DNA of 64,000 nt from Flavivirga eckloniae (lineage in GTDB: Bacteria > Bacteroidota > Bacteroidia > Flavobacteriales > Flavobacteriaceae). This document shows positions 15,694 to 45,342 of the stretch, in pieces. Location of the stretch: assembly GCF_002886045.1 (NCBI RefSeq), contig NZ_CP025791.1, forward strand, positions 4,355,001-4,419,000, in the 5' to 3' direction. Under the pieces are notes generated by a model that was not told the DNA's origin, searched no databases, and was given only the letters and a program-made list of their open reading frames with translations. The position numbers and the translations under genes were made by a program. The first letter of the stretch is position 1. Every line of letters starts with the position of its first letter.

Positions 15694-16488
15694 TTAGGGT
15701 TTTTGTTGCGTTAACTTAAAAGAATCGATAGCATGAAAATCCGATCGTGCTGCAATCTCTACAGTATATTCTTTTGCTTCATTAAAAGTGACATAAACCT
15801 GATGGGCATCACTATCTGAAGTGCTACTTATCATAGACCATTTGTCGACATCGTTCATATAAATTTTAAAAAAGCCGTTTCCATTTTCGCCAGCTGGATT
15901 TGGTGATTTACCTGATCCTTTAGGGTAAATGTCAATAGTACTGCCTGCTTTTCTTCCGAAGAAATCATCAGCATCAGGAAATTTAAGCCAAGTGTCATTA
16001 TGTTCTGCCCATGGATCTACAGCTGCTTTTTTTGCTATGTAAGACCGCCACTGAAACAAGTAAGTACCCGTTTTTTCAATGTTAATCTTGTAGGTTAGCT
16101 TGCCAACTTCTCCTACAGTACCTTTCCATGTTTGCCCTGGACCTTCCCAAACGATGTATCCTTCACCTGTGTAGCCATCAATAGTTGTCCGTTTTTTCCA
16201 ATCCCCGACTAAGGTTACATCAGAAGCATCTACTTCTACAACCGCAGCAATAAACTCTTCACACTCGCAAGTGTCTTCATTTAAAATAAAATTACCATCA
16301 CATGTTTTGGTGCAAGCCTCCTTTTCACATTCGCAATCATCTGCATTAAGTATAAAACCATCTTCACAAGTTTTGGTGCAAGTTTCCAATTTAGGGTCTG
16401 GATCCGAATCGTTACTGGAACACGATAGAGCTATTAAAAATCCTGATAAAATACTAAGTGTTGCTAAAAATGTTCTTAATTTTTTCAT
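15694..16488 (-). CDS. Lipoprotein with duplicated Cys-rich repeat and jelly-roll, CBM-like domain
   Basis: The 264-residue protein has a lipobox (ALSC, Cys23) followed by an acidic DSDPDP linker. Two tandem Cys-rich repeats (about 37-75) share the pattern CTKTC-x(n)-FILN-x(n)-C-x-C. They resemble small disulfide knots of the EGF or metallothionein-like kind. Residues 85-264 form a beta-rich domain with KTGTYLFQWRSY, WLKFPDAD and a final EYTVEIAARSDFHAIDSFKL, reminiscent of a carbohydrate-binding jelly roll. It is likely a surface glycan-binding or structural lipoprotein. It stands alone between convergent and same-strand genes. The CBM call is tentative; I know no characterised homologue. 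Confidence 0.75.
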   Translation of the reverse strand: MKKLRTFLATLSILSGFLIALSCSSNDSDPDPKLETCTKTCEDGFILNADDCECEKEACTKTCDGNFILNEDTCECEEFIAAVVEVDASDVTLVGDWKKRTTIDGYTGEGYIVWEGPGQTWKGTVGEVGKLTYKINIEKTGTYLFQWRSYIAKKAAVDPWAEHNDTWLKFPDADDFFGRKAGSTIDIYPKGSGKSPNPAGENGNGFFKIYMNDVDKWSMISSTSDSDAHQVYVTFNEAKEYTVEIAARSDFHAIDSFKLTQQKP

Positions 16489-16588: not shown

Positions 16589-17359
16589 TTAGGCCCCTAT
16601 CAATTTATTTATCTCAAGTTGTGCCTTTTTTAGTGTATTTAATAAGGTGTCAATATTGGTACTATCCTCTAAACTGGAAGAAAAAATGGAAATAGCCAGA
16701 ACAGCAATTATGTTAGCGTTTTTCGATCCTATTGGAACAGCTAGATCTGTAACACCACTGGTTAGTTTACTTTTAGAGCATCGGTAGCCGTCTTGTTCTA
16801 TGTCATCAATAATGGCGAGAAGCTTGTCTTTTTGTTTTTTGTTCCATGTTTTATAATGCTTATCCCTCGATAAAATATCGAGTCTTTTTTCTTCAGATAG
16901 CATCGCCAATAAAACCCTTCCCGAAGTCGTCATTGATAAAGAAAAGTGGGTTCCCTCCTCAATGGATAAGGATACAGGACTAGGACTCCTCATTTGATAA
17001 ATTACCAATAACTGATCGTTATTTATAATGCTTAAGTGGCAGGACTGCCTTGTGGCTTCAGATAAGTTTTGCATGGGGTATCTGGCAACACGTTTCAGCT
17101 CATCAAACGGCGTGTGCGTGTGCGAGAGGTTGTACATTTTTAACGACAATCTATATTTACCAGCATTAGCACCACGTATTAAATACCCGCGTTCTTCCAG
17201 GCATATAAGCATTCTGTATATTTCACTAGGAGTCCTATCTATACCCTGCGCAATTTCTGCCTGGGTTAAAGGAACAGCCTCTTGAGATAAATACTCTATG
17301 ATGTCAAGACCTTTATCTAATGCCGGAGCGTTGTATTTTGTTGATGTCGTTTTGGTCAT
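16589..17359 (-). CDS. IclR family transcriptional regulator
   Basis: The 256-residue protein has an N-terminal winged helix-turn-helix (about 10-65, with VPLTQAEIAQGIDRTPSEIYRML) and a C-terminal effector-binding IclR domain (about 80-250, with SCHLSIINNDQLLVIYQ and the TSGRVLLAMLSEEKR and GVTDLAVPIG segments). IclR proteins commonly repress catabolic operons for small acids or sugar acids. It is divergent from the RhaT-CoA-transferase operon with 113 bp between starts, and that gap holds two inverted repeats. It is therefore the probable regulator of that operon. The effector is unknown. Confidence 0.95.
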   Translation of the reverse strand: MTKTTSTKYNAPALDKGLDIIEYLSQEAVPLTQAEIAQGIDRTPSEIYRMLICLEERGYLIRGANAGKYRLSLKMYNLSHTHTPFDELKRVARYPMQNLSEATRQSCHLSIINNDQLLVIYQMRSPSPVSLSIEEGTHFSLSMTTSGRVLLAMLSEEKRLDILSRDKHYKTWNKKQKDKLLAIIDDIEQDGYRCSKSKLTSGVTDLAVPIGSKNANIIAVLAISIFSSSLEDSTNIDTLLNTLKKAQLEINKLIGA

Positions 17360-17472: not shown

Positions 17473-18540
17473 ATGGCAAATCCAATATTAGGTACCTTAA
17501 TCCATGCAGTAGGGGGCGTAGCAGCTTCTACATGTTATGTTCCTTTTCAAAAAGTTAAAAAATGGTCATGGGACTCATATTGGCTGGTGCAAGCTTCTTT
17601 CGCTTGGTTTATTTTTCCTTTTTTAATTGGATTTTTAACCGTTCCTAATTTATTGGATGTATTTAGCGATGCTTCAACAGAGGTGTTGTTTAACGCAACT
17701 GTTTTAGGGGCTATTTACGGTTTTGGGGGAATGTGTTTTGGTTTTGCGATCAGACATATAGGATACTCTTTAACGTATACTATTTCGATAGGTATTTCGG
17801 CAATTTTAGGAACCATTGTTCCTTTAATTATGCATAATGAATTATTGCAGAAGTTCAATGCTCCTGGAGGATATACGATCTTTTTCGGAATGGGATTGGC
17901 ACTTGTAGGGATTATAATTTGCGGTGTTGCAGGCTATAGAAAGGAGAAGGATTTAAAAAATAATAATAACGGCGGAGAACCTTTAACATTTAATATGAAA
18001 AAAGGGTTAACGCTTACATTGATTGCGGGTGTTTTATCTGCTGTTTTTGGAATCTCGTTAGAGGTTGGTGCACCAGTAGCTGAAATTGCAGGAAATTATG
18101 GAGCAGGAAATTTTGAAGGGAATGCGAACCTAATCTTATCAACAGGAGGTGCTTTTATTACAAACTTTATTTGGTTTACAATTGTAGGGTATAAGAAAGG
18201 TACTCTTAAAGAAATTGTTAGTGTAAATGGCATAGGGAAAAAAGCGTTTTATCTTAACATGGGGATGTCCGTTTTAAGTGGCGCATTATGGTACGGACAG
18301 TTTTTCTTTTATGGTATAGGTCACGTACAGATGGGGGCTTATAAGTTTGCGAGTTGGGTATTACACATGTCTATGTTAATATTCTTTAGTTATGTAGTAG
18401 GTATAGTCATGAAAGAATGGAAACAAGTAACAAAAAGAACTTACTTCACGCTTGTTTTAGCTCTTATCGTATTGGTCGTTTCATTTATTATAATGGCATA
18501 CGGAAGTAAATTAGGAACAGATATCGCATCAGGTCACTAA
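17473..18540 (+). CDS. RhaT-type L-rhamnose/proton symporter family permease
   Basis: The 355-residue membrane protein has about ten hydrophobic segments and the RhaT-family pattern: an N-terminal GTLIHAVGGVAASTCYVPFQKVKKWSWD segment, GFGGMCFGFAIRHIGYSL and a long hydrophobic C-terminus. RhaT of enterics imports L-rhamnose with protons; relatives may carry other deoxy- or branched sugars. It is the first gene of the operon behind the IclR-controlled promoter, and 19 bp separate it from the first SBP-fold gene. The two fucosidases in the locus make L-fucose or a modified deoxy-sugar possible substrates. The family call is firm; the sugar is inferred. Confidence 0.88.
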   Translation: MANPILGTLIHAVGGVAASTCYVPFQKVKKWSWDSYWLVQASFAWFIFPFLIGFLTVPNLLDVFSDASTEVLFNATVLGAIYGFGGMCFGFAIRHIGYSLTYTISIGISAILGTIVPLIMHNELLQKFNAPGGYTIFFGMGLALVGIIICGVAGYRKEKDLKNNNNGGEPLTFNMKKGLTLTLIAGVLSAVFGISLEVGAPVAEIAGNYGAGNFEGNANLILSTGGAFITNFIWFTIVGYKKGTLKEIVSVNGIGKKAFYLNMGMSVLSGALWYGQFFFYGIGHVQMGAYKFASWVLHMSMLIFFSYVVGIVMKEWKQVTKRTYFTLVLALIVLVVSFIIMAYGSKLGTDIASGH

Positions 18541-18559
18541 ATAGAATCAAAATATAAAA

Positions 18560-19711
18560 ATGAGTTCAAAAAGAATACAATTAAAAGGAATTACATGGAA
18601 CCATAGTAGAGGATTTACATCTATGGTAGCCACAGCACAACGTTTTTCAGAGTTAAACCCTAATGTTGATATTACTTGGGAAAAAAGGTCGTTACAAGCT
18701 TTTGCAGACGAACCGATAAACGAATTGGCAAAACGATACGACTTGCTTATTATAGATCACCCATGGGCTGGATTTGCTGGTAAAAACCATGTGATTTTAC
18801 CTTTAGATAAGCATTTGCCTAAAGCATTTATGGACGATTTAGCCGAAAATACTGTTGGACGTTCTCATGAGAGTTATTCGTCAAATGGTCATCAGTGGGC
18901 ATTGGCGGTAGATGCAGCAACACCAGTGGCATCGAGCAGACCGGATATTTTTGAAGAAAAAGGTTTAAAGCTACCAGAAACATACGATGATTTATTGGCT
19001 TTAGCTAAAAAAGGATTGGTTATTATGCCTGGAATTCCACAGGATACATTAATGAACTTTTACATGATGTGCTGTAATTTAGGTGAAGAAGTTTGTGTTT
19101 CTAAAGAACATGTAGTTAGTCAAGAAGTTGGTGTTAAAGCACTGCAAATGTTACGAGCGTTGGCTGTAGAAATGGATCCTCAAATTTACGATTGGAATCC
19201 AATTCAAATATATGAAGCCATGACGCTTACCGATAAATATGCGTATTGTCCTTGGGCCTATGGTTATACAAATTATAGTAGAAATGGTTATGCACGTAAG
19301 CTGTTGCATTTTCATGATATGGTAGAGATTAATGGTGTAGGTGCCATTTCTACGTTAGGAGGAACAGGTTTAGCGGTTTCTGCAGAAACGAAAGAAATAG
19401 AAACGGTGATGAAATATGTAGAATATGTAGGGTCTGAAGCTTGTCAAAAAACAGTGTTTTTCGATAATGGCGGGCAACCGGGGCACAGAAAAGCTTGGAC
19501 AGACGATCATACGAATAGCCAAACAGCAAATTTCTTTAAGAATACATTACCTGGTTTAGACCGTGCATTTTTACGACCACGTTATAACGGACATATGTAT
19601 TTTCAAGATAGAGCAGGTGCACCGATTAGAAACTATTTAATGAATGGAGGTGATGAGAAAAGCCTACTTGCAGAAATGAATGAATTATATAAAAAATCAT
19701 TAGAGATTTAA
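18560..19711 (+). CDS. Leaderless extracellular-solute-binding-protein family 1-like protein
   Basis: The 383-residue protein has the class of ABC-transporter sugar-binding proteins: a first strand [38 protein letters not shown], the [15 protein letters not shown] hinge and the C-terminal [10 protein letters not shown] segment. There is no signal peptide or lipobox: the first beta strand starts about residue 8, so it should stay in the cytoplasm. No ABC permease or ATPase gene lies in the window. It ends 1 bp before a class III CoA-transferase start, so translation is probably coupled. It may be a ligand carrier, sensor or partner of the CoA-transferase. Function unknown. Confidence 0.82.
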
Positions 19712-19712
19712 T

Positions 19713-20855
19713 ATGAAACCATTAGAAGGTATTTTGGTACTTGAATTTTGTCAGTTTATGGCTGGGCCATCTGCTGGACTGCGATTAGCAGATTTAGGAG
19801 CCAGAGTCATAAAAATTGAAAGACCCGTTCATGGAGAAGGCGGCAGACAAATAGCGATTAAAAATTTGTTTGTAGACGGTAGCAGCTTGGTTTTTCAAAC
19901 AGTTAACAGGAATAAAGAATCCTATGCAGCGAATTTAAAAGATGCAGACGATTTAAATCGTGTTAAAGAGCTAATAAAACAAGCTGATGTTATGACCCAT
20001 AATTTCCGTCCTGGTGTGATGGAAAAGATAGGACTAGACTATAAAACAGTTCAGGCGATTAATCCGCAATTGGTTTATGCAACAGTTACGGGCTATGGAA
20101 CCGAAGGCCCTTGGGCTAAAAAACCAGGTCAGGATTTATTAGTACAATGCATGTCTGGTCTGGTTAATTTAACCGGGAATAAAAAAGACGAACCAGTTCC
20201 TATGGGATTAGCCACAGCCGATCTTATTACAGGAACACATTTAGTACACGGTATTTTAGCAGCGATTATAAAAAGAGGAAAAACCAATAAAGGATCTTTA
20301 GTTGAGGTAAGTTTGTTAGAGTCTATGCTAGATTTTCAGTTTGAGGTTATTACCACATATTTAAATGATGGAAAACAAGCCCCAAAAAGAGCAAAACAAG
20401 GCTCGGCACATGCCTATTTAGGAGCGCCTTATGGTGTTTACAAAACTAAAGACGGCTACATTTCTCTGGCTATGGGATCGTTAATAAATCTGGCAAAAAT
20501 TTTGGAGTGTACTGCGCTGGAATCTTATACAGATTCGAATTCCTGGTTTGAAAAACGCGATGAGATTATGGACATTCTTAGGGATTTTCTCATTAAGAGA
20601 AATACTAATGAATGGCTAACAATTTTAGAAGCAGGAGGTATTTGGTGTTCTGATGTTTATGATTACAAAACATTGTTAAATCATGAGGCGTATAAGGTTT
20701 TAGGAATGGATCAAAAACTAAAACTGAATTCTGGAGAAGACGTACATACAACAAGATGCCCGATTAGATTGAATGATGAAAAATTATATGCTTCAAAAGC
20801 AGCACCAAGAGTTGGCGAGCATACAGATGCATTAATAAAAGAGTTTAACTTGTAG
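19713..20855 (+). CDS. Class III CoA-transferase (CaiB/BaiF family), copy 1
   Basis: The 380-residue protein covers a full CaiB/BaiF domain: [33 protein letters not shown] at the start, [32 protein letters not shown] and [12 protein letters not shown]. Asp170 fits the catalytic Asp of formyl-CoA transferase (Asp169). These enzymes move CoA between carboxylic acids, for example in oxalate, carnitine and mesaconate pathways. It is closely paralogous to the next gene (same MKPLE start, same motif spacing). A CoA-transferase within a glycan locus is unusual. The likely substrate is a sugar-derived acid; this is inference from neighbours. Confidence 0.93.
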
Positions 20856-20907
20856 AATTTTTTACGATGAAACAATTAATCGTTTACGGCTGTTACACAA
20901 AAATAAA

Positions 20908-22053
20908 ATGAAACCATTAGAAGATATATTAATTATAGATTTAAGCCAATTTTTATCGGCACCTTCAGCTACATTACGATTAGCAGACTTAGGGGCACGT
21001 GTTATAAAAGTTGAGCGACCAGAAACAGGAGATATTTGCAGACAGTTATATGTTTCAAACGTTATTTTAAATGGAGAATCCTCTGTTTTTAGAGCTATTA
21101 ATAGAAATAAGGAAAGTTTTCAAGCCGATTTAAAAAACGATGTTGATAAACAGCGTGTTTTAAAACTAATTGAAAAAGCCGATGTGTTGATTCATAATTT
21201 TAGACCAGGCGTTATAGAGCGCCTGGGCTTTGATTATGATACGATAACAAAAATAAACCCATCCATTGTTTATGGTAACATTTCCGGTTATGGAAACGAA
21301 GGCCCATGGAAATCGAAACCAGGACAGGATTTATTGGTACAATCGCTATCAGGATTAACCTGGTTGAGCGGTAATGCAGGCAATGGACCAGTTCCTATGG
21401 GGTTAGCTATTGTAGACATTCTTTCGGGATCTCATCTGGCTCAGGGGATTTTAGCCGCTCTGGTAAAAAGAGCAAAAACAGGAGAAGGGTCGAAAGTATC
21501 GGTAAGTATGTTGGAGTCTATTCTGGATTTTCAATTCGAAACCATTACAACCTATTATCACGACGGAGGTCAACCAACAAAGCGTACTGCAAGTAACAAT
21601 GCACATGCCTATCTGGGAGCACCATATGGCGTTTACGAAACCAGCAATGGCTATTTAGCCTTAGCTATGGGAGCAATTCCGGTTCTGGGAGACTTATTAG
21701 GATGCGAAACATTAAAAAACTACCCAGAAGTAGCAAGTTGGTTTACCCAACGAGATGAAATAAAAGAAATACTGGCAACACATCTAAAAACAGATACCAC
21801 CGAAAAATGGTTGTCGGTTTTAGAACCTGCAGATATCTGGTGTGCTAGTGTTATGGATTGGGATACCTTATTCGATCATGATGGATTTAAGGTGTTGGAT
21901 ATGATCCAAACGGTTACCATGGGAGATGGTTTTGAGTATGAAACCACCCGTTGCCCAATTAAAATTGATGGTGAATTATTAAAATCGACATTAGGGTCGC
22001 CTTCGTTAGGAGAGCATACAGACGCCATTGTAAAGGAATTAATCACAGATTAA
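20908..22053 (+). CDS. Class III CoA-transferase (CaiB/BaiF family), copy 2
   Basis: The 381-residue paralogue of the preceding gene has all landmarks at the same positions: [45 protein letters not shown] and catalytic Asp170 in [12 protein letters not shown]. Both copies keep the catalytic residue, so they may form a heteromer or act on two related acids. A 52-bp gap holding no gene separates the copies. The stop codon abuts the ATG of the second SBP-fold gene directly (22053/22054), indicating coupled translation. Probable origin: tandem duplication inside the operon. Confidence 0.93.
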
Positions 22054-23289
22054 ATGGGACAAAATAAATTTAGAATAGCTGTTAGAAAATTTGATGCTTT
22101 TGAATCTGCAATAGATAAAATTTGGGCATCCTTTTGTAAAGAAACAGGTTGCGATCTTGAGTTAGAAGCTGTGCCTTTAGATTTACACCCATTATACGAT
22201 ACCATTTTAAAAGAAGATGGATTGGCTAACGGCACCTGGGATGTATCCTTAATAAATACAGATTGGATTACCGAAGCCTACGCTACCAATGCTGTTGAAG
22301 ATTTAACGCCCTATATTGCTAAAAATGCACCACTCGATTTTCCTAATGGGTGGTCACGGTCTTTATTGTATAAACAAGAATTTGAGAATAAAATAGTAGG
22401 ATTGCCGTTTCACGATGGTCCGGAATGTTTAATATATAGAAAAGATTTATTTCAATCTGCAGAAGAAGGAGCTGCCTTTCATAAAAAATATGGAAAGCCA
22501 TTAGTAGTACCCAAAACCTGGGATGATTTAATGGAAGTAGCAGAGTTTTTTAACAGGCCGGAAGACCATTTATATGGAACTACTTTTGCCGCTTATCCAG
22601 ATGGTCACAACACCGTGTTCGATTTCTGTTTACAATTATGGACACGAGGTGGTGAACTGTTTGATGATGATAAGAAAATCAAATTAAACTCAGAACAGGC
22701 AGCAGAAGGGATGACGTTTTATAGAAAAGCACTTCAAAATACCAAAGCCATCCATCCCGAATCGCGGGATTTCGATTCTGTAAAGTCAGGAATGGCCTTT
22801 GCCAATGGTAATTTGGCCATGATGGTAAACTGGTTCGGATTTGCATCCATGTGCGAGTTTTTAGAAGACTCGAAAGTTAAAGGAAAAGTAGATATCGCCA
22901 ACGTACCAGCCGGTCCTAATGGAGAAGGCACATCGTTAAATGCCTATTGGATGTATGTTATAGGAAGCGGTAGCAAAAATAAAGATCTGGCATACGAATT
23001 TATCAAATTCGCTGTAAATCAGGAGAATGATAAATTACTAACTTTAGAAGGTGCAATTGGTTGCCGTAAAACCACCTGGCACGACAAAGATGTTAATACC
23101 GAAGTGCCTTACTATTACAAATTAGAAGCGTTACATAAAAAAACACGATCACTTCCCCGAAAAAGTAATTGGTCTGAAATAGCCGATGTTATCGATCAGT
23201 TGGTGTTAGATGTTATAAACACCTCAAAAGAGATTACATCAATTTTGGATCATGCCCAAAACGAAGTAGATCGTATTGAAAATAATTAA
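22054..23289 (+). CDS. Leaderless extracellular-solute-binding-protein family 1-like protein, second type
   Basis: The 411-residue protein shows the sugar-binding SBP fold: IDKIWASFCKETGCDLE, GTWDVSLINTDWITEAYA, VEDLTPYIAKN, the hinge KTWDDLMEVAEFFN, and GNLAMMVNWFGFA followed by YWMYVIGSGSKNKDLAYEFIKF. It begins MGQNKFRIAVRKFDAF, with no signal peptide or lipobox. It is only distantly like the SBP-fold protein at 18560, so it is not a recent duplicate. The start codon follows the CoA-transferase stop without a gap, and the oxidoreductase gene begins 2 bp after its stop. A cytoplasmic binding role in the same pathway is likely; no transporter partner is seen. Confidence 0.84.
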   Translation: MGQNKFRIAVRKFDAFESAIDKIWASFCKETGCDLELEAVPLDLHPLYDTILKEDGLANGTWDVSLINTDWITEAYATNAVEDLTPYIAKNAPLDFPNGWSRSLLYKQEFENKIVGLPFHDGPECLIYRKDLFQSAEEGAAFHKKYGKPLVVPKTWDDLMEVAEFFNRPEDHLYGTTFAAYPDGHNTVFDFCLQLWTRGGELFDDDKKIKLNSEQAAEGMTFYRKALQNTKAIHPESRDFDSVKSGMAFANGNLAMMVNWFGFASMCEFLEDSKVKGKVDIANVPAGPNGEGTSLNAYWMYVIGSGSKNKDLAYEFIKFAVNQENDKLLTLEGAIGCRKTTWHDKDVNTEVPYYYKLEALHKKTRSLPRKSNWSEIADVIDQLVLDVINTSKEITSILDHAQNEVDRIENN

Positions 23290-23291
23290 TT

Positions 23292-24362
23292 ATGGAGATA
23301 GTTTACAAACCCGAATTACCAAAAGAAAAAAGACCAATATACATTATTGGAGCTGGGGGTATAGTTCGCGATGCACATTTACCTGCGTATAGAAATGCAG
23401 GATTTGTAGTTGAAGGAATTACTAACCGAACAAAACAAAGAGCAGAAGATCTAGCAGAAGCATTTAACATTCCTAATGTTTATGATAATGTTGAGGACAT
23501 GGTTGCAGCAGCACCAGAAAATGCTGTATTCGATTTAACACTCATGCCAAATCAATTTGTGGCTACTTTGGAATTATTACCAGACGACTCTGCTGTATTG
23601 ATTCAAAAACCAATGGGGGATTACTACGAGCAAACCCTTGAAATTTTAGAAGTTTGCCGTAGAAAAAAATTAAAAGCAGCCATTAACTGTCAGATGCGTT
23701 ATGCACCATACGTTATGGCGGCAAAGTATTTAATAGAACAAGGATTAATAGGCGAGTTGTACGATTTTGAAATTCGTTTAACAACCTATACCCCTTGGGA
23801 ATATTTCCCAAATGTGGTGAACCATCCGCGTTTAGAAATTCAACAGCACAGTATTCATTATATCGATTTAATTCGTTCGTTTTTAGGGAATCCAAAGAAG
23901 GTATATTCAAAAACGTTGAAGAATCCTGGAAAGCCAATGTCTTCGACACGTACCACAACAATTATGGATTATAACGATGCCATGCGAGCTATTATTAACA
24001 CCAATCACGATCATAACTTCGGCGAAAAAAACCAAGAAAGTTTCGTGAAGTGGGAAGGTACAAAAGGAGCTATTAAAGCAAGAATAGGGCTGTTGTTAGA
24101 TTACCCTAACGGTAAGCCGGATTTATTCCAATACTGTATCATTAAAGAAGGAGAAGAGCCGAAATGGGTTGAGGTGCCTTTAGAGGGATCCTGGTTCCCT
24201 GATGCTTTTGTGGGAACAATGGCATCTTTAATGCGATACGTTGAAGGGTCTACAGACGAACTTCCAACAAATGTTGAGGATGTAGTACACTCAATGGCAA
24301 TAGTTGAAGCTGCTTACGAATCTAATAATGATGGAGGTGTAACTCCAAACTACAATATTTAA
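23292..24362 (+). CDS. Gfo/Idh/MocA family NAD(P)-dependent oxidoreductase
   Basis: The 356-residue protein has an N-terminal Rossmann fold (IIGAGGIVRDAHLPAY, 18-33) and the C-terminal alpha/beta domain of the family, with QHSIHYIDLIRSFLG carrying the conserved His/Asp region. The usual EKP motif is QKP here (Q105-K106-P107), keeping the Lys. Members oxidise or reduce hydroxyls of sugars, inositols and sugar acids. Position in the operon suggests it oxidises the imported sugar or an intermediate. Spacing to both neighbours is short (2 and 28 bp). Substrate unknown. Confidence 0.92.
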   Translation: MEIVYKPELPKEKRPIYIIGAGGIVRDAHLPAYRNAGFVVEGITNRTKQRAEDLAEAFNIPNVYDNVEDMVAAAPENAVFDLTLMPNQFVATLELLPDDSAVLIQKPMGDYYEQTLEILEVCRRKKLKAAINCQMRYAPYVMAAKYLIEQGLIGELYDFEIRLTTYTPWEYFPNVVNHPRLEIQQHSIHYIDLIRSFLGNPKKVYSKTLKNPGKPMSSTRTTTIMDYNDAMRAIINTNHDHNFGEKNQESFVKWEGTKGAIKARIGLLLDYPNGKPDLFQYCIIKEGEEPKWVEVPLEGSWFPDAFVGTMASLMRYVEGSTDELPTNVEDVVHSMAIVEAAYESNNDGGVTPNYNI

Positions 24363-24390
24363 ACAAATATAAATTTTCATATTAACAAAA

Positions 24391-25407
24391 ATGAAAGCAA
24401 CAATTTATGAAGGTAATAAGACCTTCACGGTAATCGAAAAAGAAATCGAACAACCAGCAACAGGCGAAGTTAGAATAAAAGTAGCTTATGTAGGTGTTTG
24501 TGGAACAGATGTACATATATACCATGGTATGATGGATAAGCGCGTTAATATTCCTGAGACTATAGGTCATGAAATGTCGGGAGTTATTGATGCCGTTGGA
24601 GAAGGTGTGTCAGGCTATGCTGTTGGAGACAAGGTAGTCGTTCGTCCGTTAGATGATAGAAAAGTAAAACCATCAGATAAAGGGTTTAACCACATATGCG
24701 AAGAGTTAAAATTTATTGGAATCGATAGTCCGGGAGCCATGCAGGAATATTGGAATGTTCCAGCATTCACATTGCATAAATTAAAAGATAATACAGATTT
24801 AAAATTAGCAGCTCTAATTGAGCCTCTTTCTGTAGCAACACACGATGTTCGCTTAAGCGGATTGGTGCCAGGAGAAACAGCTGTTGTTTTAGGAGGCGGT
24901 CCTATAGGTTTATTAGTCGCTATGGTTGCTAAAGAAGCCGGGGCAAATGTTATCATTTCTGAAGTCAATGAAACACGTATTGCAAAAGCTAAAGAATTAG
25001 GGTTAACTGCTGTAAATCCTATGAATGTTGACTTGGTGGAATACGTAAGAGAACAAACAGAAGGCAGGTTGGCCGATGTCGTTTTTGAAGTAGCCGGAGT
25101 GCAACCAGCATTAGATGTAATGACGGAAGTAGCAGGTATTAGAGGAAGAATTGTAATGGTAGCCATTCATGGGCAAAAGAAAGAAGTAGATCTGTTTAAG
25201 TTCTTCTGGAAAGAATTAAAATTAATAGGTGCCCGTGTTTATGAAAAAGAAGATTACGAAAAATCCATTGCATTAATTACCGCTAATGAATTGCCTTTTG
25301 AAGAAATGATCACGGATGTACAACCATTAAGTAATATTCAACAAGTTTTTGAAAATATAGATAACAATCCCGATGGTATGAAAGTATTGATGGATTGTCA
25401 GTTGTAG
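24391..25407 (+). CDS. Zinc-type medium-chain alcohol/polyol dehydrogenase lacking the structural zinc lobe
   Basis: The 338-residue MDR protein has catalytic zinc ligands C37 (GVCGTDVH), H60-E61 (GHEMSG) and a later Glu in IEPLSVATHDV. An NAD-binding GGGPIGLLVAMVAKEAGA motif follows at about 170. It resembles L-threonine/sorbitol-type dehydrogenases. In the place of the four-Cys structural zinc loop there is RPLDDRKVKPSDKGFNHICEE with one Cys (C103), so the structural zinc is predicted to be absent. It probably oxidises a sugar or sugar acid hydroxyl to a ketone beside the Gfo/Idh/MocA enzyme. It ends the first run of pathway genes, before a hairpin element. Confidence 0.9.
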   Translation: MKATIYEGNKTFTVIEKEIEQPATGEVRIKVAYVGVCGTDVHIYHGMMDKRVNIPETIGHEMSGVIDAVGEGVSGYAVGDKVVVRPLDDRKVKPSDKGFNHICEELKFIGIDSPGAMQEYWNVPAFTLHKLKDNTDLKLAALIEPLSVATHDVRLSGLVPGETAVVLGGGPIGLLVAMVAKEAGANVIISEVNETRIAKAKELGLTAVNPMNVDLVEYVREQTEGRLADVVFEVAGVQPALDVMTEVAGIRGRIVMVAIHGQKKEVDLFKFFWKELKLIGARVYEKEDYEKSIALITANELPFEEMITDVQPLSNIQQVFENIDNNPDGMKVLMDCQL

Positions 25408-25410
25408 TAT

Positions 25411-25523
25411 AAGGCTATCTAAAAAGTGTCATTCAGAACGTAGTGAAGAATCTCTTAAAAGGTAAATATCTGTTTATTCGATTACGCTCAAAAAGACAAT
25501 TTGAGAATTTTTTAGATAACCTT
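25411..25523. repeat. Intergenic hairpin repeat inside the operon
   Basis: Arms AAGGCTATCTAAAAA (25411-25425) and TTTTTTAGATAACCTT (25508-25523) pair with one mismatch and enclose a GTCATTCAGAACG segment and a GATTACGCTC segment. The same GTCATTC core occurs in the hairpins at 15622 and 32281. It fills the only large gap between the dehydrogenase and the glucuronidase-like gene. It could weaken downstream transcription or be a dispersed repeat of the genome. Confidence 0.65.
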
Positions 25524-25528
25524 TTCAG

Positions 25529-27637
25529 ATGCTTAAAAAAATGATAAGAATAGTATTGATAGCAACCTGTTTTATTGTGTTTTTTGCGTGTAGCAATAAA
25601 GCAGGGACTATCAATATTTATGTAGATGAAGCCGTAAAAGAAGATGTTGATTATGCGCTTCAAGAATTAACACAAGAATTAAAAGCAAATAAGATTGATT
25701 TTAGCTTCTTAAAAAGTAAAGAGCACGCGCATTTAGTTGTTGAAACTAAAGAACGTATAAATAAAAAAAATGACGGTTTTAAGCTAGAAAAAGATAATGA
25801 AACCTTATTACTATCATCAGGAAACACAAGAGGTTTATTATATGGACTTCTTGATATTGCAGAACAGATAAAAATCAAAAAAAATTGGGGGACAATTAAA
25901 GTGAAATCCGTTTCTGCGCATTACCCATTTCGAGCCATAAAACTTAACCTACCATGGTTTCCGTATAGAGGAGGAGAAAATCTCTCGTTGCATTACGATA
26001 CATGCAAAGACCTCAAGTTTTGGGAGGCTTTTTTAGATATGATGGTAGCCAACAAGTTTAACACACTTACACTTTGGAACTTGCACCCATTTATGTATAT
26101 GGTACAATCTGATAAGTTTCCAGAAGCTTCACCCTTCACCAAAGAAGAAATGGCCGAGTGGCAAACATTTTGGAAAGCTATTTTTAAAATGGCTAAAGCC
26201 AGAGGTATAGACCCTTATATTTTTAACTGGAATATTTTTGTATCGGAAGAATTTGGTAAAGCATACAACGTAGCAGAATATTCTAAAGATGGTGGCTATT
26301 GGGGAGACGGAGAAACCAATGCGATTATTGAAGAATACACCAGGGAAATGGTGTCGAAAACGATTAATGAGTATGAGGATTTAGTAGGGATTGGGATTAC
26401 CCTTGGTGAACGTATGGGAGGGATGACTTCGGAAATACGCCGGGATTGGATCGATCGTACCCTAATTCAAGGCATTAAAGATGCCGATAGAAAAGTAAAG
26501 CTGTTTTACCGTGCTCCGCTTTCTGCAGGAACAACAAGTCATGGTACCGTTAGTAAAGCAACAGAAGTTATTACCCGCGAAGCCATAGAAAACATAGGTT
26601 TGGATGATGAGGTGCTTTTAGGATTTAAATTTAACTGGTCTCACGGGCATTCTTCTCCAAAATTATCCATAGTCCATGGAGGTATTTTAACAGATACTTA
26701 CTGGAAGCCTGAGCCAGCCAATTATAAAGGCGTATATACAGTAAGGAATGAAGATTTCTTCGTATTACGTTGGGGACAACCCGATTTTGTACGTGATTTT
26801 ATGAAGTACAATAGCGAGGATTATATAAATGGCGTTATTATAGGATCAGAAACCTATATTCCTGCTAAGGATTACACGACCAAAGAAACATATCGCACCT
26901 GGGATTATGCTTTCCAAAAGCAGTGGTTGTTCTATAAAACCTGGGGAAATCTATTATATAATAAAGAGACACCCGATACTTATTTCGCAGATGTCTTAGC
27001 TAATAAATATGGCATTACAGATGGAAGTAAGCTTGTGTCTGCCTGGAGAATGGCATCGCAAAACGCCAATAGTTTAGCCAGTTTTTACAGAGGGGAATGG
27101 GATGGTACTTTGTATACGGAAGGAATGACACGAGAAAAAGGTCAGTTTATAGGTGTAAATAAGGTAATATCACACCCCGTTTTAGATTCTTCATATGTTA
27201 ATATTGCAAATTATGTTAAAGGAGCATTTACAGAAGATCAAATAACCCCTTTGCAGTTTGCAGATGCTATGGAGGAAAAAAGTATAATGGCACAGAAAAT
27301 AGCCAAACAAATTATAAAAGAATACCCCGAAAAGGAACTATTAAAAATAGAAACTAACGATATTGATACCTGGGGACATTTCGGATTATATATAGCAGAT
27401 AAAGTTCGTGGCGGTGTTGCACTACAAACATACAGAGTTAAAGGTGATAAGCAGGCACAAAAGGAAGCCATATCGCATTTAACAAATGCGCTGCAACATT
27501 GGAAAGACTATGTTACAAGCATCGAAAAGTATAATGTAGAAGTGATGCCCCATCAGTTTAATAACAAGTTTTCATTTAGGGAGCATATAGCAGGAGCAGA
27601 GAGAGATATAGCCATTGCAAAACAGGAAATTAATTAG
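25529..27637 (+). CDS. Alpha-glucuronidase-like glycoside hydrolase lipoprotein, family uncertain
   Basis: The 702-residue protein begins MLKKMIR with a lipobox ending in FFAC (Cys21). Residues 27-125 look like the small alpha/beta domain (GH20b-like) found before GH67 and GH115 barrels, ending in NTRGLLYGLLDIAEQIK. A TIM-barrel region follows with FWEAFLDMMVANKFNTLTLWNLHPF, IDPYIFNWNIFV, VGIGITLGER and LLGFKFNWSHGH; acidic residues there may be catalytic. The C-terminal 150 residues are helical. The length fits GH67, but the standard GH67 catalytic segments are not obvious, so I leave the family open. Removal of a uronic acid side chain would fit the locus. Confidence 0.75.
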   Translation: MLKKMIRIVLIATCFIVFFACSNKAGTINIYVDEAVKEDVDYALQELTQELKANKIDFSFLKSKEHAHLVVETKERINKKNDGFKLEKDNETLLLSSGNTRGLLYGLLDIAEQIKIKKNWGTIKVKSVSAHYPFRAIKLNLPWFPYRGGENLSLHYDTCKDLKFWEAFLDMMVANKFNTLTLWNLHPFMYMVQSDKFPEASPFTKEEMAEWQTFWKAIFKMAKARGIDPYIFNWNIFVSEEFGKAYNVAEYSKDGGYWGDGETNAIIEEYTREMVSKTINEYEDLVGIGITLGERMGGMTSEIRRDWIDRTLIQGIKDADRKVKLFYRAPLSAGTTSHGTVSKATEVITREAIENIGLDDEVLLGFKFNWSHGHSSPKLSIVHGGILTDTYWKPEPANYKGVYTVRNEDFFVLRWGQPDFVRDFMKYNSEDYINGVIIGSETYIPAKDYTTKETYRTWDYAFQKQWLFYKTWGNLLYNKETPDTYFADVLANKYGITDGSKLVSAWRMASQNANSLASFYRGEWDGTLYTEGMTREKGQFIGVNKVISHPVLDSSYVNIANYVKGAFTEDQITPLQFADAMEEKSIMAQKIAKQIIKEYPEKELLKIETNDIDTWGHFGLYIADKVRGGVALQTYRVKGDKQAQKEAISHLTNALQHWKDYVTSIEKYNVEVMPHQFNNKFSFREHIAGAERDIAIAKQEIN

Positions 27638-27643
27638 TAAGAC

Positions 27644-29194
27644 ATGAAAGCAGCTCTTATAGCATTTTTTTTAATAGTTACATGTATAAGCCATGCTCAA
27701 GAAACATCAGAGCAAGTGGATAAAAACAGATACGAGGCCAATTGGGAATCTTTAAAAAAGCATAAAACCCCAGATTGGTATATTGATGGCAAGTTTGGTA
27801 TTTATTTCCATTGGGGTGTTTATTCCGTGCCGGCATTTGGAACCGAATGGTACCCAAGACATATGTACATTGATAATAAAGAAGGTTGGGGAAAAGAGGT
27901 GCGTCCTCATCATTTGGAAAAGTATGGTGCCGATTTCGATTACCATGAGTTTATTCCATCGTTTACCGCAGAACACTTCGATGCTAAAGAATGGGCTGCG
28001 CTTTTTAAAGCCTCAGGTGCTTCCTGGGCTGGTCCTGTAGCAGAACATTGCGATAATTTCTCCATGTGGGATAGTAAGATAAACCCGTGGAATGCTTCTA
28101 AAATGGGACCGAAACGCGACATAGTAGGAGCGTTGGAAAAGGCTATAAAAGGAGAAGGTTTAAAATTTACGACAACCTTTCACCATTCATGGAATTGGGC
28201 TTGGTATGATACCTGGAGTGGAAATATTGATGTTTCTACACCAGAATTAAGACAGTTTTATGGAGAGGAGGTTTTACCCGGAACTTTTAACAAAATGAGC
28301 AGTGGTTCTATGGGTAATGGGGCTGAAACTGGCAAAATTGAAGAAAAATACAAACCTTCTAAAAAATTCATTTCTACCTGGAGAACTAAAATAGATGAGG
28401 TGGTTGATACTTATAAACCAGATATGTTATGGTTTGATAGTAGGCTCTTCATAATACCGGAAAAAGAAAGACAGGAAATGGTAGCCCATTACTACAATAA
28501 AAGCCTTGAGTGGAATAAACCGGTAGTCTTAAATTATAAAAATAAAGATTTGGCAGAGGGAGCAGGCGTTATTGATCTGGAAAGAGGGCGGTTTGATGAA
28601 AAGACAGCATTCTACTGGCTAACCGACGATTCCTGGGATTGGTCTGGTTGGAACTATAAAGAAAATCACGATTATAAATCAGCAGATCGTATTCTAGATG
28701 GTCTTGTAGACATCGTTAGTAAAAATGGGTGCTTATTATTAAACATAGGGCCTAAGGCAGATGGTACCATACCTGAAGAAGTTAAAAAGGGATTGTTAGA
28801 ACTTGGTGGTTGGTTGAAAATTCATGGAGAGGCTATCTATAAAACACGCCCTTTTGTAACTTATGGAGAGGGAAAAACAAAACTTAAAAAAAATCATTGG
28901 GGAGGCGTTAATGATCGTGGCATCACTTACACTGCTAACGATTTTCGATTTACAACAAGGGATGGCTATTTGTATATTTTACAATTAGGCATGCCAAAAC
29001 CTAATAAAGAATTCAGATTAAAATCGTTTGCTAAGAATGGATTAGCTTCAGATGTGAAAATAGAATCATTAGAACTTTTGGGGAGTGTAAAAAACACAAA
29101 ATGGCACCAAAATTCTAAAGGACTTTATTTAACTTCGCCAGAAGTAAACCCTAATAAAATGGTTTTAGTTTATAAAGCAAAAATCAGTAACTAA
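27644..29194 (+). CDS. GH29 alpha-L-fucosidase-type glycosidase, copy 1
   Basis: The 516-residue protein has a signal peptide ending near SHAQ. GH29 landmarks: PDWYIDGKFGIYFHWGVYSVPAF at the start of the barrel, AKHHD-like region seen as PVAEHCDNF, nucleophile Asp265 in DMLWFDSR, and LLLNIGPKADGTIPEE with the WLKIHGEAIY region after. The usual family His before the Asp is a Cys in this copy (EHCDN). GH29 enzymes release alpha-L-fucose, and some subgroups act on alpha-L-galactose or alpha-L-glucose. It lies 6 bp after the glucuronidase-like gene, and the KduD-like gene follows 16 bp on. Confidence 0.94.
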   Translation: MKAALIAFFLIVTCISHAQETSEQVDKNRYEANWESLKKHKTPDWYIDGKFGIYFHWGVYSVPAFGTEWYPRHMYIDNKEGWGKEVRPHHLEKYGADFDYHEFIPSFTAEHFDAKEWAALFKASGASWAGPVAEHCDNFSMWDSKINPWNASKMGPKRDIVGALEKAIKGEGLKFTTTFHHSWNWAWYDTWSGNIDVSTPELRQFYGEEVLPGTFNKMSSGSMGNGAETGKIEEKYKPSKKFISTWRTKIDEVVDTYKPDMLWFDSRLFIIPEKERQEMVAHYYNKSLEWNKPVVLNYKNKDLAEGAGVIDLERGRFDEKTAFYWLTDDSWDWSGWNYKENHDYKSADRILDGLVDIVSKNGCLLLNIGPKADGTIPEEVKKGLLELGGWLKIHGEAIYKTRPFVTYGEGKTKLKKNHWGGVNDRGITYTANDFRFTTRDGYLYILQLGMPKPNKEFRLKSFAKNGLASDVKIESLELLGSVKNTKWHQNSKGLYLTSPEVNPNKMVLVYKAKISN

Positions 29195-29210
29195 TTATAA
29201 AAATAATAGA

Positions 29211-29981
29211 ATGAGTATTTTGAACAAATTTAGTCTAGAAGGAAAAACAGCTTTAGTAACAGGTTGTAAAAGAGGTATTGGTAAAGCTATGGCCGTAGGT
29301 TTGGCAGAAGCAGGAGCCAATATTATTGGAGTATCAGCTTCATTAGAATTAGAAGGTAGTGATGTTGAAAAAGCAGTACAAGCTACAGGTAAAAGTTTTA
29401 AAGCTTACCAGTGCGATTTTTCAAATAGAAAAGCCTTATATGCTTTTATAGCCGAAGCTAAAAAAGACAATCCAACCATAGATATTTTAGTAAACAATGC
29501 AGGAACTATTTTAAGAGCTCCAGCAGCAGAACATTCAGACGAATTATGGGATAAAGTGATTGAAGTTAACCAGAACGCTCAGTTTATTTTAACTAGAGAA
29601 TTTGGTAAAGAAATGATCGCCAGAGGTTCTGGAAAAGTGATATTTACGGCTTCGTTACTAACGTTCCAAGGTGGAATAACAGTACCGGGTTATGCTGCTA
29701 GTAAAGGCGCTATAGGTCAGTTAACCATGGCTTTTTCTAACGAATGGGCAGGTAAAGGCGTTAATGTAAATGCTATTGCACCTGGTTATATTTCAACAGA
29801 TAACACAGAAGCTTTAAGAAATGATCCAGCAAGAGCCGAATCTATTTTATCTCGTATTCCTGCAGGAAGATGGGGAGAAGCAGAAGATTTTGCCGGACCA
29901 ACAGTATTTTTAGCATCAGAAGCTGCAGCTTACATGAATGGCGCTGTTGTACTTGTTGACGGTGGATGGATGGGTAGATAA
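29211..29981 (+). CDS. kduD-like: KduD-like short-chain dehydrogenase (2-deoxy-D-gluconate 3-dehydrogenase type)
   Basis: The 256-residue SDR has the cofactor motif TGCKRGIG (residues 17-24), NNAGT, catalytic Ser in FTASLLTFQGG and YAASKGA with Tyr and Lys, and the C-terminal GAVVLVDGGWMGR typical of KduD. KduD interconverts 2,5-diketo-3-deoxygluconate and 2-keto-3-deoxygluconate in unsaturated uronate breakdown. A kduI gene occurs at 35209, supporting this role, though in another transcription unit. Given its neighbours it may instead oxidise an L-fuconate-type intermediate. The family is certain, the substrate less so. Confidence 0.88.
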   Translation: MSILNKFSLEGKTALVTGCKRGIGKAMAVGLAEAGANIIGVSASLELEGSDVEKAVQATGKSFKAYQCDFSNRKALYAFIAEAKKDNPTIDILVNNAGTILRAPAAEHSDELWDKVIEVNQNAQFILTREFGKEMIARGSGKVIFTASLLTFQGGITVPGYAASKGAIGQLTMAFSNEWAGKGVNVNAIAPGYISTDNTEALRNDPARAESILSRIPAGRWGEAEDFAGPTVFLASEAAAYMNGAVVLVDGGWMGR

Positions 29982-30005
29982 TTTTTATCATAAAAAATAT
30001 TAAAC

Positions 30006-30458
30006 ATGCATATTTTATCAAGATTTTATGAAGACTACGAATTAGGTAGTAAAAGAGAAACCTTAGGAAGAACGATTACAGAAACAGATTTTGTTGTTCA
30101 CGCTGGCCATACAGGCGATTATTTTCCACACCATATGGATGCCGAATGGTGCAAAACACAGCCTTTTAAAGAGCGAATAGCACATGGTACGCTTACGTTT
30201 GCCGTGGGTATTGGTATGACAGCAACAGAGATTAACCCTGAGGCTTTTTCTAAAGGATATGATAGATTACGTTTTATAAAACCAGTACACATAGGTGATA
30301 CCATTAGGGTTGTTGTAACTATTAGCGAAAAGAAAGAATCTAAACACCCTCATTTAGGCCATGTTAATGAGCATGTTGAAATATTCAACCAACGCGACGA
30401 ATTGGTTTTAGTTTGTGACCATATTTTACTGGCCAAGAAAAAAGAATTCGAGAGCTAA
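30006..30458 (+). CDS. MaoC-type (hot-dog fold) dehydratase/hydratase
   Basis: The 150-residue protein has the hydratase-2 motif: Asp38 and His43 ([12 protein letters not shown]) followed by [19 protein letters not shown]. Single-domain MaoC proteins add or remove water on enoyl-CoA or similar thioesters. Together with the two CoA-transferases it forms a pair known from mesaconyl-CoA and other CoA-ester pathways; in a sugar operon it suggests dehydration of a hydroxyacyl-CoA from a sugar acid. It is the last gene of the operon, 24 bp after the KduD-like gene. No thioesterase, thiolase or CoA-lyase gene is seen in the window. Confidence 0.9.
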
Positions 30459-32448: not shown

Positions 32449-33777
32449 TTATTCAAATTGAATCCAGTCTATATTCATTAAGTTGTCGCTTTCGCCTTCA
32501 AAAACTAACTTAATAGTCTTAATACCTTTTATTTTTTTGTTTATTGGTGTTTCAATGGTTTTCCAGTTATCCCAACCCCCAGTATTCGATACTAGAGTAG
32601 AGGTTATTAATTCATTATCTAGAAATAGCTTTATAGTTCCTCCATTGGTTCCCGAAGACACCTTATAAGCTACGCTCTTAATTTTTTTGGAGTCAAAATC
32701 GACCGAATTATAAGTTACACATGCATTAGGTTTAATATACTCTAATTGCCATCCAACTACGCTTTTATCATTTAGCCTATTTACTTTTAAGTCTTGCGAT
32801 GTAGAAAACCTATCGATTTGAATTGGCTTATCAATTTTTGTAATCCCGATACCTCTTAAAGTGGCCTTTTTCTCTTTTATTAAACCTTTACTGTCAAAAA
32901 ACAAGCTATCGGCTCGCATTGATCTTAAATGCTGGTTTTTTGAAATATCATGATGATGATAGAATATGTACCATTGCTTTTTGTACTCTAAAATAGAGTG
33001 GTGGTTAGTCCAGATACCGTCTTTCCAACGCTCCATAATACGACCTTGATATTCAAATGGTCCCATTGGGTTTTTTCCTGTAGCATAAGCGATTTCCTCA
33101 GAGCCAGACTTATCATGTGGAAAGGTGAAATAATAAACCCCATCTTTTTTAAACATAAAAGAGCCCTCTTTATAACCTTCAGGTAGATTTTCTATCTTTT
33201 TGGCAGTGCCTTTAATAGATTTCATGTCTTCATTAAGTTCGGCAACAAATAAAGTTTTACCGCCCCCGAAATATAAATAAGCACGTCCGTCATCATCAAT
33301 TAAAACATTCGGATCAATACCATTAACCCCTTTTATATAGTCTTTTTCAAGAGTATATGGCCCTTCTGGAGATGTAGCTGTAGCAACACCAACCCGTCTA
33401 AACCCACTTTTATCTAATGGTGGTGCAGGGTAGTAATAGTAGTAAACCCCATCTTTTTCTACACAATCGGGTGCCCACATGCCAAAACCATCTTTTTTAC
33501 CCCAGGGAACATCTGTCTGGTCAATAATTTTTCCATGATCTGTCCAAGTTGTTAAATCCGTTGTAGAAAAAACGTTATACGAAGGCATGCAAAAACCATT
33601 TTCACCTTTACCTTCCTCGCAAACTATATCTGTTGAAGGAAATACGTATAATTTTTTATTAAAAACCCTGGCAGTTGGATCTGCTGTATACATATGCGTT
33701 ACCAATGGGTTTTGTGAGGTGCTTTGAAAGCTAATTAATAAGGCTATTAAACCAATAAATGTGTTACTCTTATTCAT
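32449..33777 (-). CDS. GH43 family glycosidase with C-terminal CBM6-like domain
   Basis: The 442-residue protein has a signal peptide ending near TSQ (residue 22). Five-bladed propeller features: catalytic base Asp33 (TADPTA), pKa-modulating Asp155 (NGIDPNVLIDDDG) and acid Glu204 (GYKEGSFMFK). The C-terminal 130 residues (VGWQLEYIKPNACVTYNSVDF to NLMNIDWIQFE) resemble a CBM6 jelly roll. GH43 enzymes act on arabinofuranosides, xylosides and galactans. It is on the minus strand, apart from KduI/DUF4861 by 221 bp and a terminator. Substrate could be a beta-xylose or arabinose side chain; unknown. Confidence 0.94.
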   Translation of the reverse strand: MNKSNTFIGLIALLISFQSTSQNPLVTHMYTADPTARVFNKKLYVFPSTDIVCEEGKGENGFCMPSYNVFSTTDLTTWTDHGKIIDQTDVPWGKKDGFGMWAPDCVEKDGVYYYYYPAPPLDKSGFRRVGVATATSPEGPYTLEKDYIKGVNGIDPNVLIDDDGRAYLYFGGGKTLFVAELNEDMKSIKGTAKKIENLPEGYKEGSFMFKKDGVYYFTFPHDKSGSEEIAYATGKNPMGPFEYQGRIMERWKDGIWTNHHSILEYKKQWYIFYHHHDISKNQHLRSMRADSLFFDSKGLIKEKKATLRGIGITKIDKPIQIDRFSTSQDLKVNRLNDKSVVGWQLEYIKPNACVTYNSVDFDSKKIKSVAYKVSSGTNGGTIKLFLDNELITSTLVSNTGGWDNWKTIETPINKKIKGIKTIKLVFEGESDNLMNIDWIQFE

Positions 33778-33926
33778 GTACTCTATATTGAATGGGTAAA
33801 ACTAACCTTTCAATAAAAGAGTCATTAGATCAATTGATTTTATTTACACAACATATGATTTTTCTAATAAAAGAAGATCGAGTAAAATTAAAATAGTAGA
33901 ACTGTGTAATGCTTGTGGGTATTGAA

Positions 33927-33966
33927 AACCAGTCTATTAGAGGTGGTGTGCTCCAAGAGACTGGTT
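33927..33966 (-). terminator. Intrinsic terminator after DUF4861
   Basis: A perfect 9-bp stem AACCAGTCT (33927-33935) and AGACTGGTT (33958-33966) is followed on the minus strand by TTTTC. It lies 33 bp beyond the DUF4861 stop and closes the kduI-DUF4861 unit. Confidence 0.7.
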
Positions 33967-33998
33967 GCTTTTTAAATGTTTTGGGTAATTCCTTGAAT

Positions 33999-35171: not shown

Positions 35172-35208
35172 ACTTAAGGGGGATTATGATGGTTAAAGAG
35201 ATACTATT

Positions 35209-38964: not shown

Positions 38965-38976
38965 TAAAATTTTAAA

Positions 38977-40641: not shown

Positions 40642-40671
40642 CAGCAATTAACCGTTAAGGGGGGACGTCAT

Positions 40672-42069: not shown

Positions 42070-42073
42070 CTCC

Positions 42074-43915: not shown

Positions 43916-43919
43916 CCCC

Positions 43920-45326: not shown

Positions 45327-45342
45327 CAAATAAAAGTATATT

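Follow-up and report, generated by a model that had tools for sequence, protein, structure and literature searches.

What do two coenzyme A (CoA) transferases do in the middle of a sugar operon? The question is raised by a 64,000-nucleotide stretch of Flavivirga eckloniae DNA (the window; bases 4355001–4419000 of a single-contig 5.67 Mb genome, contig NZ_CP025791.1). Here the genes of two predicted class III CoA-transferases, CaiB1 and CaiB2, stand between the genes of two proteins of the solute-binding protein (SBP) type, SBP1 and SBP2, in one operon with a RhaT-family permease, a Gfo/Idh/MocA (Gfo/Idh) dehydrogenase, a fucosidase and a MaoC hydratase. An earlier note on this DNA had read the set as a deoxy-sugar acid route. 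Our preferred reading, to which we give somewhat less than an even chance, is that the core SBP1-CaiB1-CaiB2-SBP2-Gfo/Idh-MaoC is a conserved catabolic unit through which a sugar acid passes as its CoA thioester, with the SBPs as partners.

Conservation of the module

To collect related loci, an alignment of 17 diverse SBP1 homologues was searched against genomes sampled at one per species. The main locus set consists of the best 80 of at least 576 SBP1 relatives, each inspected together with flanks of at most 10 kb. Loci are given L-numbers and the genomes compared G-numbers. Gene content in G+C-rich loci was established by tblastn, and L019, which has a CaiB but no SBP1, does not enter the conservation counts. 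At least two CaiB matches are present in all 80 loci, the nearest within 100 bases of SBP1 and on the same strand in 70 of them. SBP1 and CaiB1 mostly overlap, with a median gap of −4 bases (76 pairs). A MaoC or a crotonase is found in 75/80 loci, SBP2 in 58/80, Gfo/Idh in 57/80 and, no more than 10 kb away, an IclR match in 37/80. The five loci where neither hydratase was found are L045, L047, L055, L068 and L081, the last three of which stop early at contig ends.

The same picture is obtained from further samples. For a Pseudomonadota genome sample, CaiB accompanies SBP1 in 20/20 loci (17 adjacent) and a hydratase in 20/20; for plasmid loci the numbers are 10/10 (7 adjacent) and 9/10, and for loci of relatives 11/14 each. 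Matches to the SBP1 profile occur in 19/395 Bacteroidota genomes and in 18/398 genomes of the phylum of Gilvimarinus, where a match at E 1e-30 defines an SBP1-positive genome. Among the 19 SBP1-positive Bacteroidota genomes, the whole block was seen in G000, G079, G227, G258 and G399, and a block with crotonase (type B, see below) in G012. In 10/10 proteobacterial genomes or records, which were chosen for SBP1 and contain 2–12 CaiB matches each, the CaiB closest to CaiB2 of the window is the one in the SBP1 locus. The module is widespread, and the operon is one example of it. Whether the SBP-CaiB-CaiB-SBP block is conserved had been named beforehand as a refutation test; it is, across Bacteroidota and in part of Pseudomonadota.

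SBP1 and SBP2 form a leaderless family

SBP1 is assigned to the receptor type by fold and family, SBP2 by family. The closest folds to the AlphaFold model of SBP1 are sugar receptors. As the earlier note had claimed, both proteins are leaderless: five in-frame codons lie upstream of the SBP1 start and none upstream of the SBP2 start. Their N-terminal hydropathy is 0.46 and 0.73, compared to 3.14 for the glycoside hydrolase family 29 (GH29) protein and 2.93 for a sulfatase, on a crude measure that gives 1.92 for the cytosolic CaiB1. A leaderless SBP2 start is also found in L186 and L187. Two of the 80 SBP1 frames of the genome scan lie above the hydropathy mark, both via far-upstream starts, and one has a lipobox-like pattern; none of 57 SBP2 frames is above the mark, and the 11 lipobox-like patterns among them come without a hydrophobic stretch. 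SBP1 and SBP2 are a conserved leaderless family that belongs to the module.

This sets them apart from the receptors of ATP-binding cassette (ABC) sugar transporters such as SmoF or trehalose/maltose-binding protein. No ABC permease or ATPase is present among the operon genes in the list of open reading frames (ORFs) and their Pfam matches, and the proteobacterial SBP1 loci possess a separate receptor of their own that has a leader. Because both leader and permease gene are absent, an ABC-transporter role for SBP1 and SBP2 is ruled out.

The strongest alternative to a partner role, which we nevertheless consider unlikely, gives the SBP-fold proteins an enzymatic activity of their own. With the cleft turned into an active site, they might, for example, carry out an elimination, an epimerisation or the opening of a lactone on a sugar acid or its CoA ester. 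Enzymes with this fold exist, among them the chorismate dehydratase MqnA and cyclohexadienyl dehydratase. In SBP1, 30 positions are invariant across 17 homologues from loci with differing sugar genes, and many of them map to loops following strands in the model. Furthermore, those SBP1 relatives that have no CaiB nearby (L020, L032, L033) sit among genes for sugar dehydrogenases, lactonases, epimerases and dehydratases. However, the fold of SBP1 is that of an undisturbed sugar receptor with no known catalytic motif, and the near-constant pairing with CaiB suits a partner role equally well.

Linkage to 6-deoxyhexose genes

The module occurs in two variants. Type A contains a group I MaoC and accounts for 54/80 loci, all of which encode a permease (FucP in 49, RhaT in 6, one locus having both). 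Type B contains a crotonase instead (21/80 loci). Neither FucP nor RhaT was detected in these 21 loci at the thresholds used, and 20 of them have an aldehyde dehydrogenase. A RhaT relative with 25% identity is present in the type-B locus of Zobellia. The hosts of four type-B loci (L061, L074, L090, L108) are named as agar degraders.

In 13/80 loci, 12 from Flavobacterium and one from a Flavobacteriaceae bacterium, the block is adjoined by genes for L-fucose dehydrogenase and fuconolactonase; 12 of these 13 also have the diketo-acid hydrolase there. A homologue of the short-chain dehydrogenase/reductase (SDR) was found in nine loci. In L112, the sole locus scored, L-fucose dehydrogenase reaches 355.9 against a cut-off of 300, with lactonase (263.5 vs 400) and hydrolase (376 vs 500) both below theirs. 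The same locus encodes a GH141 protein with an L-rhamnose-mutarotase domain near the block. On plasmids of Roseibium and Shinella, the CaiB-SBP1 pair is found near IclR, a sugar ABC transporter, an enolase-family enzyme, a mutarotase, Gfo/Idh, MaoC, SDR and an annotated L-fuconate dehydratase.

At the level of genomes, where six candidates were scored in each of the 395 Bacteroidota, L-fucose dehydrogenase was found in 17/19 SBP1-positive compared to 38/376 SBP1-negative genomes (Fisher p 3.5e-14, a value inflated by kinship). Counted by genus, the difference is 8/10 to 24/161 (p 2.3e-5). The genome of F. eckloniae itself has an L-fucose dehydrogenase above the NF052481 cut-off at 4306592–4307371, 48 kb before the window. 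No match to FucI (PF07881) or RhaA (PF06134) was found in this genome, and none to FucD in the genome at E 1e-20 or in the window at E 1e-5. The hydrolase gene was not found by the block in the window.

The oxidative L-fucose pathway of Xanthomonas campestris proceeds through L-fucose dehydrogenase (FucDH), lactonase, FucD, SDR and hydrolase. It concerns the same sugar family, and its genes other than FucD lie beside the block in some loci. The module loci differ by the presence of CoA-transferase, MaoC and SBPs. A FucD- or UxaA-type dehydratase was found in none of the 80, nor was a relative of the xylonate dehydratase YagF, the one E. coli protein with which IlvD/EDD-type enzymes were sought. 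Distant enolase-family matches (25–35%) were limited to the type-B loci L090, L099, L105 and L108, and to L033. The linkage of the module to genes for 6-deoxyhexose uptake and fucose oxidation is strong, and the earlier proposal of a deoxy-sugar acid route is partly supported. A 2017 reconstruction has FucD missing from an Algoriphagus fucose locus that contains FucP (PMC5507952).

The fucose genes could be mere neighbours, with the module serving another sugar of the same polysaccharides such as L-galactose, L-rhamnose or a methylated or branched sugar. We regard this as improbable. It would agree with the rhamnosidase-family genes of type-A loci (GH78 in 26/80 loci, GH106 in 29/80), with OiaX/OiaK-like genes in 4/80 loci, with the location of the L-fucose dehydrogenase of F. 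eckloniae in an L-galactonate-type set and with the separate fucose cluster of some genomes. It agrees less well with FucP or RhaT being present in 54/54 type-A loci, and with L-fucose dehydrogenase, lactonase and hydrolase directly adjoining the block in Flavobacterium. The OiaX- and OiaK-like genes (3-oxo-isoapionate type) follow the block in L098, L103, L104 and L109, score below curated cut-offs in L104, and are a hint at a downstream 3-oxo acid or apiose.

CoA-transferases and hydratases

Both CaiB proteins match PF02515 over their full length with scores (Table 1) to be compared with a cut-off of 23.3 bits, and both have the catalytic Asp (Asp169 of E. coli Frc) at residue 170. The Asp is present in 61/61 rows of an alignment built from rows longer than 280 residues of 37 picked loci and six reference or own rows; a separate alignment took 44 of the best 80 loci and the window. 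With domain and catalytic residue kept, CaiB1 and CaiB2 are predicted class III CoA-transferases, in agreement with the first annotation. In the midpoint-rooted tree of the 61 proteins, in which the E. coli rows are long branches, CaiB1 (17 rows) and CaiB2 (18 rows) form sister clades, each of which splits into Bacteroidota and Pseudomonadota. The CaiBs of alphaproteobacterial plasmid loci branch outside both clades. CaiB1-CaiB2 is a single open frame of 792–818 residues in 4/80 loci, all from Hymenobacter, which argues for a heterodimer, and CaiB1 and CaiB2 probably form one. Two different CaiB-like subunits are also found in the benzylsuccinate CoA-transferase BbsEF, whose chains A and B (PDB 9fn0) match CaiB1. 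BbsEF differs in its aromatic substrate, and in the window pair both subunits retain the Asp.

In Sinorhizobium meliloti 1021, the SBP1-linked CoA-transferase of pSymB (L034, 731321–732447) matches as two pieces in different frames, and in S. meliloti ABS7 one CoA-transferase gene is annotated at the corresponding place. Judged from these sequences, the split appears to be a frameshift or a sequencing error.

All 17 rows of a MaoC alignment have the Asp and 12 the His; the remaining five are group II MaoCs with Val at the His position. The window MaoC belongs to group I, keeps the Asp/His pair and is 65% identical to the MaoC of a Roseibium fucose-type cluster. L021, L023 and L027 have a second MaoC between CaiB1 and CaiB2, with about 71–74% identity to the CaiB-adjoining MaoC of Roseibium. 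Since the MaoCs of the window and its relatives match Roseibium MaoCs of each group, two MaoC groups are common to both phyla. Of the CoA-transferase and MaoC combination that the earlier note had singled out, the MaoC is present with its catalytic pair, but it is not a fixed part: a crotonase can stand in for it, as it does in the type-B loci.

The carnitine CaiB model gives 96.7 and 83.4 bits for CaiB1 and CaiB2, below its cut-off of 413, and the CoA:oxalate CoA-transferase model about 200 bits against 522; oxalate is not favoured as a candidate substrate. The CoA-transferases and MaoC might act on a small downstream acid (lactate, glycolate, glycerate or similar) and not on a sugar acid, to which we assign a low probability. 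The nearest characterised class III enzymes do use small acids, and the aldehyde dehydrogenase of crotonase-type loci is nearest to the E. coli AldA-type model. On the other hand, the CaiB pair is embedded across loci with sugar-receptor-fold proteins and upstream sugar dehydrogenases, and the named small-acid CoA-transferase models score far under their cut-offs. The idea that the neighbours are a chance collection of genes, each family of which is indeed common by itself, has a negligible probability and is contradicted by the conservation of SBP1 with CaiB across the 80 and 20 loci and by the matching phylum splits of the CaiB1 and CaiB2 clades.

Proposed pathway

On the reading of the core as a CoA-thioester module for a sugar acid, exported fucosidases would cut a 6-deoxyhexose, L-fucose or a close derivative, from a polysaccharide, and the sugar would enter the cell by RhaT or FucP. 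A dehydrogenase, which may be Gfo/Idh in the window and, in Flavobacterium, also the neighbouring L-fucose dehydrogenase with its lactonase, would then make the aldonate. CaiB1 and CaiB2 are proposed to put CoA on this aldonate (L-fuconate or a close relative). The thioester would make the C2 proton more acidic, so that MaoC, or crotonase, could eliminate the C3 substituent of the aldonyl thioester by beta-elimination. CoA would be handed on from each product to the following substrate, in the way known for CaiB and carnitine. SDR or alcohol dehydrogenase (ADH) and a hydrolase would then oxidise and cleave the 2-keto-3-deoxy product. SBP1 and SBP2 may be former ABC sugar receptors retained in the cytosol as substrate-binding partners of CoA-transferase and dehydrogenase.

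The proposed route has its chemical precedent, by analogy, in the carnitine system. There, the shared substrate of CoA-transferase and hydratase is a beta-hydroxy acid in CoA-ester form, and CoA is recycled from product to substrate. The E. coli operon caiTABCDE combines genes for a class III CoA-transferase and a hydratase (CaiB-CaiD) but differs in having one CaiB, not two, no SBP-fold partner and no sugar genes. The parts of the module are known families, and the proposed chemistry has precedent. In the full-text literature searched, the coverage of which leaves out most subscription journals, neither a sugar-acid pathway that depends on CoA nor a combination of CaiB with cytosolic SBPs was found described. 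The earlier note likewise knew of no described polysaccharide utilisation locus with this gene set.

A wider claim would be that the module represents an undescribed branch of sugar catabolism, in which CoA thioesters open beta-elimination to aldonates beyond the reach of metal-dependent dehydratases, with cytosolic SBP-fold parts of the CoA-transferase. We offer this as a rather doubtful possibility. O-methylated fuconates without a free C2 hydroxyl are proposed as an example of such aldonates. Modified sugars of complex polysaccharides, for example rhamnogalacturonan II, would fit the two fucose clusters of the Flavobacterium-type genome G227, one with a UxaA-type dehydratase and one with the block, as well as the GH141 protein of L112 and the OiaX/OiaK-like genes in 4/80 loci.

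Evidence weighing against the proposed role

Several observations speak against the pathway or against its placement at the L-fuconate dehydratase step. The second fucose cluster with a UxaA-type dehydratase is found not only in G227, whose copy was assigned by Pfam, but also in the SBP1-positive G278 and G372. FucD-like enzymes are encoded in the SBP1-positive G012, G342 and G207 (65, 61 and 43% identity), with partial matches of 28–33% in six more of the 28 genomes searched. Alphaproteobacterial clusters contain both FucD and the CaiB-SBP1 pair. The L-fucose dehydrogenase gene of F. eckloniae has UxaA- and UxaB-like genes as neighbours, which would suit a route of the L-galactonate type, and in L112 Gfo/Idh is present although L-fucose dehydrogenase adjoins. 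The 20 kb stretches around the distant SBP1 relatives in L020, L032 and L033 contain no CaiB. Finally, open-frame lengths in the genome scans revealed no fusion of SBP and CaiB, where a few long frames were not individually followed and those inspected, in G+C-rich loci, are read-through.

The block and FucI are also not mutually exclusive. They co-occur in 1/19 genomes compared to 0.77 expected, and a replacement of fucose isomerase, as mutual exclusion would show it, is unsupported in the phylum sample. Among 40 relatives, three FucI genomes have no SBP1 match, too few to count. Likewise, the statement that the block replaces L-fuconate dehydratase everywhere is too strong, given the UxaA-type clusters and FucD-like enzymes listed above. 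With these dehydratases coexisting, the block would either be a second way of dehydrating fuconate or have as its substrate a fuconate relative that is closed to ordinary dehydratases.

In L280 (12413–14068) and L291 (6500–8227), the genes for L-fucose dehydrogenase, SDR and hydrolase are accompanied by a UxaA-family dehydratase, and FucD is missing. Such a UxaA-family enzyme may likewise take the place of L-fuconate dehydratase and offer a competing explanation of the published FucD gap (PMC5507952).

The operon and its surroundings

All genes of the operon are ORFs on the plus strand between 17473 and 30458, in the set and order first reported: RhaT, SBP1, CaiB1, CaiB2, SBP2, Gfo/Idh, ADH, a lipoprotein-like protein, GH29, KduD-like SDR and MaoC, with the linked IclR regulator confirmed in divergent orientation (Table 1). 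Of the two glycosidases listed earlier, the second is the GH29 protein; the first has a lipoprotein-like N-terminus and no Pfam match. Intergenic gaps are 0–52 bases from RhaT to ADH, followed by one of 121 bases and by gaps of 6–24 bases downstream to MaoC. RhaT, CaiB1, CaiB2 and the KduD-like SDR all score below NCBIfam equivalog cut-offs.

Table 1. Genes of the operon and its divergent regulator, with positions in the window
Feature	Position	Strand	Basis
IclR-family regulator, divergent from operon	16589..17359	-	IclR_C and HTH_IclR (Pfam)
RhaT-family permease, proposed 6-deoxyhexose importer	17473..18540	+	PF06379 181.6 bits; NCBIfam RhaT 296.5 vs cut-off 468
SBP1, leaderless sugar-receptor-fold protein	18560..19711	+	SBP_bac_1 37.1 bits; AlphaFold pLDDT 92.6
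CaiB1, predicted class III CoA-transferase, Asp170	19713..20855	+	PF02515 (CoA_transf_3) 334.3 bits
CaiB2, predicted class III CoA-transferase, Asp170	20908..22053	+	PF02515 325.4 bits; sister clade of CaiB1
SBP2, second leaderless sugar-receptor-family protein	22054..23289	+	SBP_bac_1 103.5 bits
Gfo/Idh/MocA dehydrogenase	23292..24362	+	GFO_IDH_MocA (Pfam); 45% identity to Gfo/Idh of Roseibium fucose-type cluster
Zinc alcohol dehydrogenase, Tdh-like	24391..25407	+	ADH_N/ADH_zinc_N
Protein with lipoprotein-like N-terminus	25529..27637	+	no Pfam match
GH29 alpha-L-fucosidase with leader	27644..29194	+	PF01120 (Alpha_L_fucos) 319.4 bits
KduD-like SDR	29211..29981	+	TIGR01832 320.8 bits, below cut-off 338.85
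MaoC (group I) hydratase	30006..30458	+	PF01575 (MaoC_dehydratas) 79.2 bits; Asp/His pair

As in a polysaccharide utilisation locus, a SusC/SusD-type pair is located near the operon (SusD_RagB at 8756–10225 and a TonB receptor plug at 10245–13598, Pfam). Downstream, GH43, DUF4861 and KduI are found at 32449–36051, followed at 36445–53756 by two GH2, three sulfatases, two GH28, the second of the two GH29 fucosidases of the window, DUF6786 and a GDSL lipase. These surroundings (32449–53756) have the look of a locus that serves a sulfated polysaccharide containing fucose and uronic acid. Adjoining the IclR gene, bases 15694–16488 encode a 264-residue protein without Pfam match that keeps this position in six relatives (L021–L025, L027) with 68–78% identity.

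Two further loci of the same genome have related content. L019 (about 3.785 Mb) encodes a third CaiB with SDR, GH20 and transporters, and L020 (about 3.085 Mb) an SDR, the distant SBP1 relative, a crotonase, a lactonase-type protein and a UxuA-family protein. The two may be halves of a related route.

Implications

If the proposed role is true, CoA activation as known for fatty and aromatic acids would extend to sugar acids in bacteria of two phyla, and exported sugar receptors would have been converted into cytosolic parts of an enzyme system. The module would be a candidate for the L-fuconate dehydratase step reported missing from a Bacteroidetes fucose locus (PMC5507952). It would bear on how algal and plant polysaccharides are turned over, and it would give a new location and a new job to hundreds of proteins annotated as extracellular solute-binding, the at least 576 relatives of SBP1.

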